Below are positions 58,208 to 64,000 of a stretch of DNA of 64,000 nt, in pieces. This DNA comes from an uncultured Propionibacteriaceae bacterium (GTDB lineage: Bacteria; Actinomycetota; Actinomycetes; Propionibacteriales; Propionibacteriaceae), in NCBI GenBank assembly GCA_945911015.1, contig CAMDZW010000011.1:1-64000 (forward strand), in the 5' to 3' direction. The notes beneath the pieces are model-generated. The model had not been told where the DNA came from, did not search any database, and saw only the letters and a list, made by a program, of their open reading frames with translations. Both the position numbers and the translations under genes were made by a program. Each line of letters starts with the position of its first letter. Positions within the stretch are counted from its first letter, which is position 1.

Positions 58208-60790
58208 TCAGTCGTCGACGATCGTCAGTGCATCCCCGGCCTCGTTGAGGTCGAACCGGACGGTGTCGCCCTCGGAGACCTCACCGGCCAGCACCCGGCG
58301 GGCGAGCAGGTCTTCGATGGTGTTCTGGACCAGGCGTCGCAGTGGACGTGCCCCGTACACCGGGTCGAAACCTGCCAGTCCAAGCCAGTCCTGAGCTGCT
58401 TGGCTGACCTCGACACTGATCCGTCGGTCGGCGAGCCGCTGGTTGAGCCGGCCCAGATTGATCGTGACGATCTGGGCAAGCTCGTCGGCATGGAGTGCGT
58501 CGAAGAGGACGACATCGTCGAGGCGGTTGAGGAACTCCGGCTTGAACGCATTGCGCACCACATTCATCACCGACTCCCGCTTGACCTCATCGTTCAGCTT
58601 CGGATCGGCGAGGTACTGCGAGCCGAGGTTCGAGGTGAGGATGAGCAGGACATTGCGGAAGTCGACCGTACGCCCTTGGCCGTCGGTGAGGCGACCGTCG
58701 TCGAGGACCTGCAACAAGATGTTGAAGATCTCCGGGTGCCCCTTCTCGACCTCGTCGAGCAGGACGACCGAGTAGGGACGACGCCGGACGGCTTCGGTGA
58801 GCTGACCGCCTTCCTCGTATCCGACATAGCCCGGAGGTGCCCCCACCAGACGGGCGACCGAGTGTTTCTCGGAGTACTCACTCATGTCGATGCGGATCAT
58901 GGCGCGTTCGTCGTCGAAGAGGAACTCGGCCAAGGCCTTGGCGAGTTCGGTCTTGCCGACACCGGTCGGGCCCAGGAAGAGGAACGATCCAGTCGGCCGA
59001 TTCGGGTCGGAGATGCCGGCCCGGGATCGCCGTACGGCATCGCTGACCGCTTGGACCGCGGTGCGCTGGCCGATGAGGCGTTCGCCGAGGCGATCTTCCA
59101 TGTGGAGCAGCTTCTCGCTCTCGCCCTGCATCAGTCTCCCGACCGGGATGCCGGTCCAGTTGGCGACGACCTCGGCGATGTCGTGGGAGCTGACCTCCTC
59201 ACGCACCATCGAGTCCGGACGGGTCTCGGCCTCGGCCGCGTGGGCCATCTGCTCTTCCAGGGCAGGGATCTGGCCGTAGAGCAGCTCCGAGGCCCGGGCC
59301 AGGTCACCGTCGCGCTGGGCACGGTCGGCCTCGGTACGAAGACGATCGATCTCCTCACGCAGGTCACCGACTCGGTTGAGGGAGGATTTCTCGTCCTCCC
59401 ACCGTTGTTCGAGGGAACGGAGCTCCTCGTTGGCGTCGGCCAGTTCGGAGTTCAACCGGTTCAGTCGCTCAACGCTGGCGGGATCGGTCTCCTTCGCCAG
59501 GGCGAGCTGTTCCATCGTCATCCGGTCGACCTGGCGCCGGAGCTGGTCGATCTCCTCCGGCGAGGAGTCGATCTCCATCCGCAGCCGGGATGCGGCCTCG
59601 TCGATCAGGTCGATCGCCTTGTCCGGCAGCTGTCGGGCGGTGATGTAGCGATGGGACAGGCTCGCGGCGGCAACCAGGGCCGAGTCGGTGATCGCGACCT
59701 TGTGGTGCGCCTCGTACCGCTCGCGCAGGCCACGCAGGATGGCGATGGTGTCCTCGACGCTGGGCTCGCCGACCAGGACCTGCTGGAAGCGACGCTCCAG
59801 GGCGGGGTCCTTCTCGATCCGTTCGCGGTACTCGTCCAAGGTGGTGGCACCGATCATGCGGAGCTCACCGCGAGCCAGCATCGGCTTGAGCATGTTGCCA
59901 GCGTCCATGGACGAGTCCCCGGAGGCTCCGGCACCGACCACGGTGTGCAGCTCGTCGATGAAGGTGATGATCTGGCCCTCGGCGTCACGGATCTCGGTGA
60001 GGACGGACTTGAGCCGTTCCTCGAACTCGCCGCGGTACTTGGCACCGGCAACCATGGCCGACAGGTCGAGGCTGATCAGACGGCGCCCCCGCAGCGAGTC
60101 GGGGACGTCCCCGGCGACGAGTCGCTGGGCGAGGCCCTCGACGACGGCGGTCTTGCCGACACCGGGTTCGCCGATCAGGACCGGGTTGTTCTTGGTACGG
60201 CGGGCGAGGACCTGGACGACGCGTCGGATCTCGGAGTCGCGGCCGATGACCGGGTCGAGCTTGCCCTCGCGGGCATGTTCGGTGAGGTCCACGCCGTACT
60301 GGTCGAGGGCAGAGCTGGTGGCTTCGGACTCCTGGCTGGTGACCCGCTTGGAGCCGCGGATGCTGTTGAACGCCTCGATGATCTTCTCTGCGGTGGCGCC
60401 GGCGTTGGTGAGGATCTTCTTGGCCGGCGAGTCGATCGTGGCCAGCGAGATCAGCAGGTGTTCGGTGGCGACGAACTGGTCACCGAGCTGTTCGGCGCGA
60501 GTCTCGGCGTCGGCGTGGACACGAGCGATCGCACCCGACATGGTCGGCTGGGAGACCGATGTTCCCTTGGCCGCGGGCAGCTTCTTGATCGCGGCCGCCG
60601 CCTCGGCGTCAATCAGCTTCGGGTCGGCCCCGACCTGGGTCAGCAGCGGCGCCACAGTGTTGTCAGGGATCTGCAGCAGGGTGTGCAACAGGTGCACGGG
60701 CTCAACACTGGGGTTGCCATTGTTCAGCGCCTCGCGCACTCCGGCCGAGACCGCGTCCCGGCTCATGGTCGTCAGCTTGTTTGCGTCCAT
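58208..60790 (-). CDS. clpB: ATP-dependent disaggregase ClpB
   Basis: 860-residue Hsp100 chaperone that works with DnaK to rescue aggregated proteins. Order: N-domain repeats ([17 protein letters not shown]...), AAA1 with GEPGVGKTA and the DELHT box, a long coiled-coil middle domain (about 400-530), AAA2 with GPTGVGKTE, and the C-terminal domain. ATG 60790 is preferred (AGAGGA upstream, standard first residues); GTG 60811 would add seven. Two HAIR operators and a good promoter precede it, so HspR control is expected although hspR is not in the window. Confidence 0.96.
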
Positions 60791-60822
60791 CGAGTCCTCT
60801 GAATCACTCACGCAGACCCGGG

Positions 60823-60897: not shown

Positions 60898-60929
60898 CCA
60901 GCATTTGTCCTTGCGCCGCCCCAAGCACG

Positions 60930-61011
60930 CCGGCCCGCACGGCAAGGCAGGCCGGCCAGCACGGTAGGGCATGCCGGCCAGCACGGTAGGGCATGCCGGC
61001 CAGCACGGTTT
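60930..61011. repeat. 22-bp tandem repeat upstream of clpB
   Basis: About 3.7 units of CCGGCCAGCACGGTAGGGCATG: two exact copies (60952-60995), a partial third, and a degenerate first. The region 60898-61108 holds no convincing gene; it lies between clpB regulatory DNA and the end of the nucleoside hydrolase gene. Confidence 0.88.
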
Positions 61012-62134: not shown

Positions 62135-62221
62135 GAGGCGTACCGTCGATCCACCCATTGGGCACGGGGACCGGTTCCCAGCACCGGCAGACGACTGATT
62201 CATGGATCGACGGTACGCCTC
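62135..62221. repeat. 19-bp perfect inverted repeat
   Basis: GAGGCGTACCGTCGATCCA (62135-62153) and its exact reverse complement (62203-62221) flank 49 bases that contain smaller self-complementary pieces. The structure could form a long hairpin in RNA or a cruciform in DNA, or be two binding sites in opposite orientation. No IS ends or ORF are associated. Confidence 0.9.
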
Positions 62222-62318
62222 AGGCAGCTCGGGCAGGCCACGCTCACTGCGCGCATTCGGGACGCTTGCGAGGGCTCCTGAAGTTCGGCTACTGGCAACC
62301 GCGCTGCTTGCGGCGGAT

Positions 62319-62334
62319 CTGCTGTACGCAGCAG
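62319..62334. promoter_or_regulatory. Candidate operator of the clpP pair
   Basis: CTGCTG-TACG-CAGCAG is a perfect 6-bp dyad with a 4-base centre, 40-55 bases upstream of the first clpP start. A second loosely symmetric CGC-N5-GCG lies 10-20 bases before it. Either could be the site of the ClgR/PopR-like regulator; the known ClgR pattern is not matched well. Confidence 0.35.
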
Positions 62335-62373: not shown

Positions 62374-62988
62374 ATGACAGAGAACGACGACAGACAGTTC
62401 ACCAGGCGTGACCGGGAGGAGCTGCTCGCTCGACGGGTGGTGGTCCTCGATGGACCGCTCGACGACGACAACGGCACCCTGCTCGCCACCCAGATGCTGA
62501 GGCTGGCGGCCACCGACGACTCGGCCGACATTGCCCTGTGGATCCATTCCCCCGGCGGATCGGTGCCCGCCATGTTGGCAATCCGCGACATCATGCGACT
62601 CATTCCGTGTGAGGTGTCGACGCTGGCGCTCGGCCTTGCCTGCAGTGCCGGGCAGTTCCTGTTGTCGGCCGGGACGCCGGGACGGCGACGCGCGCTCCCG
62701 CACGCCCGGATCCTGATGCACCAGGGGTCAGCCGGCATCGGCGGGTCGGCGGCCGATGTCGAACTGCAGGCTGATGACCTGCGCCACACCCGCGACACCG
62801 TCCTCGGTCTGATCGCTGAGGACACCGGCCAGCCATTCGATCGGATCGCGGCCGACTCGGCACGTGACCGGTGGTACACAGCAGGCGAGGCTGTCTCGTA
62901 CGGCTTCGTCGACGAGATCGTCTCCGACTTCACCCTGCTGGCACCACCACCGGCTCGTACCGGCTTCGGCCAGGCGGGAGGTCTGTGA
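62374..62988 (+). CDS. ClpP-family serine protease, catalytically complete
   Basis: 204-residue ClpP subunit. The triad is present: Ser91 in GLACSAGQFLL, His116 in ILMHQ and Asp165 in ARDRWYTA. Substrate-binding WIHSPGGSVPAMLAI is conserved. ClpP forms a double-ring chamber fed by Clp ATPases. Its stop overlaps the next start by one base (TGATG), so it is made together with the degenerate partner. The arrangement resembles the accessory clpP3-clpP4 operon of Streptomyces; whether a second, main clpP pair exists in this genome is not visible. Confidence 0.9.
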   Translation: MTENDDRQFTRRDREELLARRVVVLDGPLDDDNGTLLATQMLRLAATDDSADIALWIHSPGGSVPAMLAIRDIMRLIPCEVSTLALGLACSAGQFLLSAGTPGRRRALPHARILMHQGSAGIGGSAADVELQADDLRHTRDTVLGLIAEDTGQPFDRIAADSARDRWYTAGEAVSYGFVDEIVSDFTLLAPPPARTGFGQAGGL

Positions 62989-63575
62989 TGTCGTACCCCG
63001 TCCCGAATGTCATCGAGCGCACACCGAGCGGCGAGCGGTACAGCGATGTCTGGTCACACCTGCTGTCGGGCCGGATCATCTATGTCGGCACCCCGGTTGA
63101 TGCCGGTGTCGCCAATGCGCTGGTCGCGCAGCTGCTGCACCTCGATGCGGACAACTCCGAGCGCGACATTCAGCTCTACATCAACTGTGCCGGTGGCGAC
63201 CCGGCGGCCATGCTGGCGGTCTACGACACCATGCAGCACATCCATGCCACGGTGGCCACCACCTGTGTCGGGCAGGCGGTGGCCGCTGGGGCAGTCCTGC
63301 TTGCCGCGGGAGCTCCGGGGAAGCGATCAGCAACGCCACACTCGCGGATCGTGCTGCACCAGCCTGGGGTCGACGGGGGCCGGGGCGCGATCCCTGACCT
63401 GATCATCGAGGCCGAGGAACTGGCTCGGATGCGGGGGCAGCTCGAAACGATCCTGGCTCGCCACAGCGGCAGGGAACCGGCGCAGGTCCGAGCCGACACC
63501 GACAGGACCCGGGTCCTCACTCCGGCCGCCGCGATCGAGTACGGGGTGATCGACCACATCGTCCAGGGCCGCTGA
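62988..63575 (+). CDS. ClpP-family protein with degenerate active site
   Basis: 195 residues, clearly ClpP (INCAGGDPAAMLAVYDTM, VGQAVAAGAVLLAAGAPGKR, EYGVIDHIV) but the nucleophile serine is Ala99 (GQAVAAGA instead of GQAASAGA) and the catalytic aspartate position is Thr174 (DTDRTRVLT instead of DTERDxxLT). Only His124 remains. It should fold and assemble but not cleave, like plant and cyanobacterial ClpR subunits. Coupled to the active subunit by a 1-base overlap. Confidence 0.9.
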   Translation: MSYPVPNVIERTPSGERYSDVWSHLLSGRIIYVGTPVDAGVANALVAQLLHLDADNSERDIQLYINCAGGDPAAMLAVYDTMQHIHATVATTCVGQAVAAGAVLLAAGAPGKRSATPHSRIVLHQPGVDGGRGAIPDLIIEAEELARMRGQLETILARHSGREPAQVRADTDRTRVLTPAAAIEYGVIDHIVQGR

Positions 63576-63583
63576 CCCCCGCC

Positions 63584-63628
63584 GACATGACTCAGGCCGA
63601 CATGATTCAGGCCGGCATGGCTCAGGCG
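63584..63628. repeat. 15-bp tandem repeat at the convergent clpP/regulator junction
   Basis: Three units of GACATGACTCAGGCC (with GACATGATTCAGGCC and GGCATGGCTCAGGCG) fill the gap after the second clpP stop and run into the stop and last codon of the regulator gene, where the unit contributes the Ala-stop end. Confidence 0.8.
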
Positions 63629-63963
63629 GCAATCGCCCAGGCCGTCACCGGCGGGCCGTCCATCCGCGTCGGCGTGCTGGCCTGGGCGCTCAGGTCGAGA
63701 CGGACCGGCTGCTGGGACAGCTGCTGGCCGACAGCGATGGCGACCTCGGCCACGGTGGAGCCCAGGGCGAGCGCAACCGCTTCGATCATTTCACTGGAGG
63801 GATCCTTGCGGCCCCGTTCGATCTCGGAGAGGTACTGGGTGGAGATACCGGCCCGTGCCGCGACATCGAACAATCGTTCGCCCCGCGTGCGGCGCAGCCA
63901 ATGGAAGTGTGCGCCGAGCACATCCCGAAACAGCGGCTCCCGTGGCCTGTCGCGGATCTCCAT
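63622..63963 (-). CDS. ClgR/PopR-like XRE family regulator
   Basis: 113-residue DNA-binding protein. The helix-turn-helix RGERLFDVAARAGISTQYLSEIERGRKDPSSEMIEAVALALG is of the ClgR/PopR type that activates clpP operons in actinobacteria. It ends AWAIAA; in the Streptomyces relatives two C-terminal alanines mark the regulator for ClpP degradation, which closes a feedback loop. ATG 63963 gives the normal start (MEIRDRPREPLFRDVLGAHFHWLRR); the frame extends nine codons upstream. Convergent with the clpP pair it likely controls. Confidence 0.88.
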   Translation of the reverse strand: MEIRDRPREPLFRDVLGAHFHWLRRTRGERLFDVAARAGISTQYLSEIERGRKDPSSEMIEAVALALGSTVAEVAIAVGQQLSQQPVRLDLSAQASTPTRMDGPPVTAWAIAA

Positions 63964-64000
63964 GACCGCACAGTACGTTGCCGATCCCATCGCAGGGCAG

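Follow-up and report, generated by a model that had tools for sequence, protein, structure and literature searches.

Repeated loss of the ClpP4 catalytic site in clpP3-clpP4-popR reserve protease modules

The 64,000-nucleotide stretch of DNA analyzed here (the window) carries a Streptomyces-type clpP3-clpP4-popR reserve protease module in which the ClpP4 subunit lacks the Ser and Asp residues of the ClpP catalytic triad. This pairing of a dead subunit with an intact one is not peculiar to the window genome: the module is widespread, and the dead subunit recurs in it. The reserve module itself is already known; the wide recurrence of dead ClpP4 appears to be new. No earlier report of ClpP4 lesions was found in the open literature searched, a scope that leaves the founding 2000 and 2002 papers outside, and a literature search for inactive or pseudoprotease ClpP in actinobacteria returned nothing relevant. 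We favor, with a probability of roughly 0.7, a reading of the module as a reserve protease in which ClpP3 cuts, ClpP4 docks the ATPase, and PopR builds up when the housekeeping ClpP1P2 protease fails.

The clpP3-clpP4-popR locus

The locus and its neighborhood include the following features.

58208 to 60811, minus strand: full gene for the ClpB chaperone, about 1.6 kb from clpP3
62303 to 62317, plus strand: upstream PopR-like box, GCTGC-N5-GCGGA, 2 mismatches to TCTGC-N5-GCAGA
62318 to 62332, plus strand: second PopR-like box, TCTGC-TGTAC-GCAGC, 1 mismatch to TCTGC-N5-GCAGA
62374 to 62988, plus strand: clpP3, ClpP1-type subunit of 204 amino acids (open reading frame, Pfam, alignment, joint tree)
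62988 to 63575, plus strand: clpP4, ClpP2-type subunit of 195 amino acids (open reading frame, Pfam, alignment, joint tree, predicted model)
63622 to 63990, minus strand: popR-like gene for an HTH activator of the ClgR family, C-terminus AIAA, with an alternative start at the inner ATG at 63963

The original prediction placed the two clpP genes in one operon with a 1-base overlap, and the open reading frames and coordinates bear this out, as the TGA and ATG have base 62988 in common. Both products match PF00574 (ClpP family) across the whole domain (5.3e-54 for ClpP3 and 4.3e-59 for ClpP4). In a joint tree with the housekeeping proteins, the sister group of ClpP3 is ClpP1 and ClpP4 is placed as sister to ClpP2, so the operon probably arose via duplication of clpP1P2. 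The assembly (3.72 Mb, 69 contigs) carries its housekeeping clpP1-clpP2 pair separately, on contig 8 and with full triads. ClpC is encoded on contig 39, and contig 53 carries a fragment of ClpX at its edge. A motif scan located an LGF-type ClpP-binding loop in the ClpX and ClpC of this genome. The neighboring ClpB was considered as a dedicated partner and rejected, since the motif scan found no LGF/IGF-type loop at its ClpP-binding site.

The popR-like gene is convergent with clpP3-clpP4. Its product resembles ClgR in belonging to an HTH activator family and ending in Ala-Ala, but it scores 58.7 bits against the ClgR model (NF041677), below the cut-off of 170. PopR is a paralogue of ClgR, and the missed cut-off therefore fits a PopR. 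We rejected the window regulator as the ClgR of this genome because a better candidate, also with an Ala-Ala end, is encoded on contig 26 (127.8 bits). Upstream of clpP3, the two PopR-like boxes stand in tandem at intervals of 15 bp. The same arrangement is found in the operator published for S. lividans clpP3, TCTGCC-N3-GGCGAATCTGCC-N3-GGCAGA, which amounts to two tandem TCTGC-N5-GCAGA boxes at 15 bp (PMC9775585). In the module loci surveyed below, 88 of 117 have a box ahead of clpP3 with no more than one mismatch (1.6 expected), and 116 of 117 have one when two mismatches are allowed (18.6 expected). Palindromes with the same layout, scanned as controls, showed no enrichment in this region with up to one mismatch. 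These boxes, together with an Ala-Ala end in 109 of the 118 module regulators, support the initial description of the regulator as a ClgR/PopR-like activator ending in Ala-Ala.

The clpP3-clpP4 operon of Streptomyces is turned on by PopR, which ClpP1P2 degrades, so that ClpP3P4 is made only upon failure of the housekeeping protease (PMC9765437, PMC12607617, PMC7142297). The window shares with this system a two-gene operon, a convergent PopR-type activator with an Ala-Ala end, tandem TCTGC-N5-GCAGA boxes upstream of clpP3 (62303-62332), and a separate clpP1P2 and ClgR. With its ClpP3 of ClpP1 descent, its ClpP4 of ClpP2 descent, and a housekeeping set alongside, the window locus has the makeup of a Streptomyces-type clpP3-clpP4-popR reserve module.

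One element of the original prediction needs correction. It proposed a self-limiting loop in which the regulator is destroyed by the same ClpP that it controls, but in Streptomyces it is the housekeeping enzyme that removes PopR (PMC9765437, PMC12607617). Because of this precedent, and because the window genome has its own clpP1P2 and ClgR, the main loop is by analogy probably cross-talk between paralogues and not simple self-limitation. The 2002 founding paper reportedly allows that ClpP3P4 may also destroy PopR, to a lesser degree.

Several repeats lie in the same region. A perfect 19-nt inverted repeat (GAGGCGTACCGTCGATCCA; arms at 62135-62153 and 62203-62221, with 49 nt between them) sits in the gap that separates the PopR boxes from the nucleoside hydrolase gene. 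A tandem 22-bp repeat (60925-61009; 3.9 copies, 92% match) lies in the interval from clpB to the nucleoside hydrolase gene, and a tandem 15-bp repeat of about 3 copies (63581-63627) occupies the clpP4-popR gap and extends into the last popR codons. An Rfam search of the window gave no matches.

Catalytic residues in the window and across module loci

Alignment to relatives and solved ClpPs confirms the triad originally proposed for the first subunit, with Ser91, His116, and Asp165 of ClpP3 in the catalytic positions. In the second subunit, Ala99, His124, and Thr174 fall on the Ser, His, and Asp columns when the protein is aligned to solved ClpPs and to ClpP4/ClpP2-type relatives, as had been predicted. 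The flanks are ungapped (GQAVAAGAVL versus GQAASMGA, RIVLHQP, and ADTDRTRV versus DTERDRF), and the alignment offers no substitute Ser or Asp at the catalytic columns. These flanks, together with relatives that have the same or neighboring lesions, rule out sequencing error or misalignment. The idea of a dead subunit paired with an active one is supported for the window. The predicted model of ClpP4 is confident (pLDDT 88), its best match among solved structures is the ClpP2 chain of the M. tuberculosis ClpP1P2 complex, and the protein keeps the N-terminal axial loop motif and pocket Tyr64.

By its residues, ClpP4 is a ClpP homologue without a catalytic triad, like the ClpR that accompanies active ClpP in cyanobacteria, plastids, and apicoplasts (PMC7966870). 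Unlike ClpR, it is predicted to be PopR-controlled, it is sister to actinobacterial ClpP2 (in a tree that contained no ClpR sequence), and its triad has disappeared several times over in separate lineages. Judged from these sequence comparisons, ClpP4 is most likely a convergent, ClpR-like subunit.

ClpP4 relatives were gathered from 197 genomes of the same family, 394 genomes of the class, named contigs, and plasmids. A module locus was defined as a clpP pair with a convergent PopR-like gene, which gave 118 loci. The ClpP3 triad is Ser-His-Asp in all 117 readable loci. An intact triad in ClpP4 occurs in only 33 of the 118 loci, a share of about a quarter that is not a population estimate because the survey was drawn by similarity to a profile containing dead ClpP4. 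This share is overstated if anything, since two of the 118 loci (L145 and L163), both intact, resemble housekeeping pairs with a chance HTH neighbor. The paired control consisted of housekeeping ClpP1 and ClpP2 from 30 of these genomes, and all of them are Ser-His-Asp.

The ClpP4 lesions in the survey are varied. Ser is replaced by Ala, Gly, Asp, Glu, Trp, or Phe; His by Gly, Gln, Thr, Ser, Ala, or Asp; and Asp by Asn, Ser, His, Thr, Gln, or Glu, the last of which might leave partial function. The lesions are often mutually exclusive, in that proteins with Ser in place have lost His, or conversely. Even without reference to a tree, this points to losses that occurred independently. A change of His to Gly marks a family of 6 to 11 Mb genomes (f18), probably Streptomyces, in which eleven genomes lack His, and is also present in the named Streptomyces fungicidicus plasmid copy (L164), whereas the window protein lacks Ser and Asp. 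All three triad residues are lost in the Corynebacterium copies. At L070, L076, L103, L106, and L141, the catalytic Ser is replaced by a bulky Trp or Phe, whose side chain should take up the space of the catalytic pocket. The accessible text of the Streptomyces reports describes ClpP3P4 as a backup core and makes no mention of a defective ClpP4.

In a ClpP4 tree computed with the triad columns omitted, the distribution of intact and broken proteins requires at least six state changes, and a single clade for all broken ClpP4 is rejected by the AU test (p-AU 4.5e-12). The test and the mutually exclusive lesions together rule out a single ancient loss of catalysis. The closest relative of the window ClpP4 is that of Gordonia hydrophobica (70% identity, pairing with 97% SH-aLRT), which keeps Ser and has Thr for Asp. 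A search of related genomes for the window substitutions recovered Thr at the Asp column in this species, and in the surrounding clade the Ser column is occupied by Ala, Gly, or Asp. With its Ser inside such a clade, the Gordonia protein (L036, 4001-4579) either regained Ser in a triad that still does not work or marks losses that happened several times in parallel. A genome of the window's genus (G023) has an intact version of ClpP4 that belongs to a different branch. The module also occurs on large plasmids of Streptomyces, Embleya, Tsukamurella, and Prescottella (L164 to L167). Plasmid carriage in several genera is a possible route for the transfer of the module between lineages, which is likely to have taken place.

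Probable division of labor between ClpP3 and ClpP4

In Streptomyces ClpP1P2, the catalytic Ser of ClpP1 is reported to be needed and that of ClpP2 dispensable, whereas the ATPase pocket is essential in ClpP2 and not in ClpP1 (PMC9765437). We compared the pocket positions tested in that study (60, 62, and 82 in mature E. coli numbering). ClpP4 has Tyr62 in 121 of 123 sequences and Phe, Tyr, or His at position 82 in 122 of 123, and most ClpP4 proteins carry an N-terminal G-E-R motif that was found in none of the surveyed ClpP3 proteins. All three positions are aromatic in housekeeping ClpP1; in ClpP3, position 60 is mostly Ser, Ala, or Arg and position 82 mostly Leu, Ala, or Thr. The pocket of the window ClpP3 is degenerate (Ala54, Trp56, and Leu76). 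The original proposal of a dead subunit that determines which ATPase is used agrees with this pocket pattern and, by analogy, with the ClpP2 precedent. Streptomyces and Mycobacterium ClpP1P2 likewise combine two unlike subunits, with ClpP1 cutting and ClpP2 docking the ATPase in Streptomyces. Both of their triads are full, however, whereas the putative docking-type subunit of the window has lost its own.

According to our preferred reading, PopR would normally be removed via its Ala-Ala tail by housekeeping ClpP1P2 and a Clp ATPase. If ClpP1P2 failed, PopR would build up, bind the tandem boxes before clpP3, and turn the operon on, and the product would be a mixed ClpP3/ClpP4 barrel. All catalytic sites of this barrel would come from ClpP3, and its ClpX- or ClpC-binding face would come from ClpP4. 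The catalytic site of ClpP4 would be dispensable in the mixed barrel, which may be why it has been lost here and many times elsewhere. For the window organism, we infer the assembly of ClpP3 and ClpP4 into rings, docking on ClpP4, and the regulatory circuit. The pocket of the window ClpP4 departs from the canonical aromatic pair, with Gln at position 60 and His at position 82, and position 62 is still Trp or Tyr in some ClpP3 proteins. Given both observations, docking may instead take place on ClpP3. Furthermore, the intact ClpP4 of about a quarter of the modules counts against a division in which ClpP3 cuts and ClpP4 docks.

Antibiotic pressure could also bear on the module. ClpP3P4 is reported to be ADEP-insensitive (PMC12607617), and a degenerate ClpP3 pocket would fit this property. 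We consider it rather unlikely that the ClpP3P4 barrel is proof against Clp-targeting natural products and that such pressure drives the repeated catalytic death of ClpP4. If so, ClpP3 would have retained its cutting site and lost the aromatic pocket by which ADEP grips ClpP1, and ClpP4 would have retained its ATPase-docking face and lost the nucleophile attacked by serine-reactive beta-lactones.

Dead ClpP4 might instead regulate the housekeeping protease, as a non-cutting subunit that enters ClpP1P2 rings and dampens or redirects them. Its ClpP2 descent in the joint tree is consistent with this role, as is the precedent of ClpP-ADEP, which shows that additional ClpPs are able to break up tetradecamers of ClpP1 and to partner with ClpP2 (PMC12607617). 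Nevertheless, in almost all module loci clpP4 shares an operon with an intact clpP3, and life in S. lividans is reported to require at least one of clpP1P2 and clpP3P4 (PMC9765437), which fits a working protease and not a poison. We therefore regard this role as decidedly unlikely.

We give hardly any credence to a ClpP4 that still cuts, via an altered catalytic arrangement or with the help of ClpP3. Listeria ClpP1, with Asn for Asp, turns active in a mixed complex (PMC9765437), and some ClpP4 proteins have only Asp changed; however, the nucleophile itself is absent from the window ClpP4, and the Ser column holds Ala in 56 of 175 ClpP4/ClpP2-type sequences and Gly, Trp, or Phe in others. Decay of clpP4, as the second gene of a rarely used operon drifting toward a pseudogene, might be suggested by the many different triad lesions and by the silence of the operon in normal S. 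lividans cells (PMC9765437), but it is extremely improbable and is rejected by pairwise dN/dS values for dead ClpP4 of 0.07 to 0.19 (about equal to those of the partner ClpP3), by frames that are intact over old clades with the pocket and N-terminal motif kept, and by the confinement of triad lesions to ClpP4. The dead clpP4 genes are still under purifying selection.

Meaning for two-subunit ClpPs

The module constitutes a natural evolutionary experiment on the reason for two-subunit ClpPs, in which ClpP4 loses catalysis many times and ClpP3, in this sample, never does. From the pattern of loss it can be predicted, without a structure, which ring does the cutting and which one carries the ATPase. 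The ClpP3P4 backup of Streptomyces, which is used as a reporter of ClpP failure and is tied to the survival of ClpP-targeting drugs, is probably a protease with half its sites dead.
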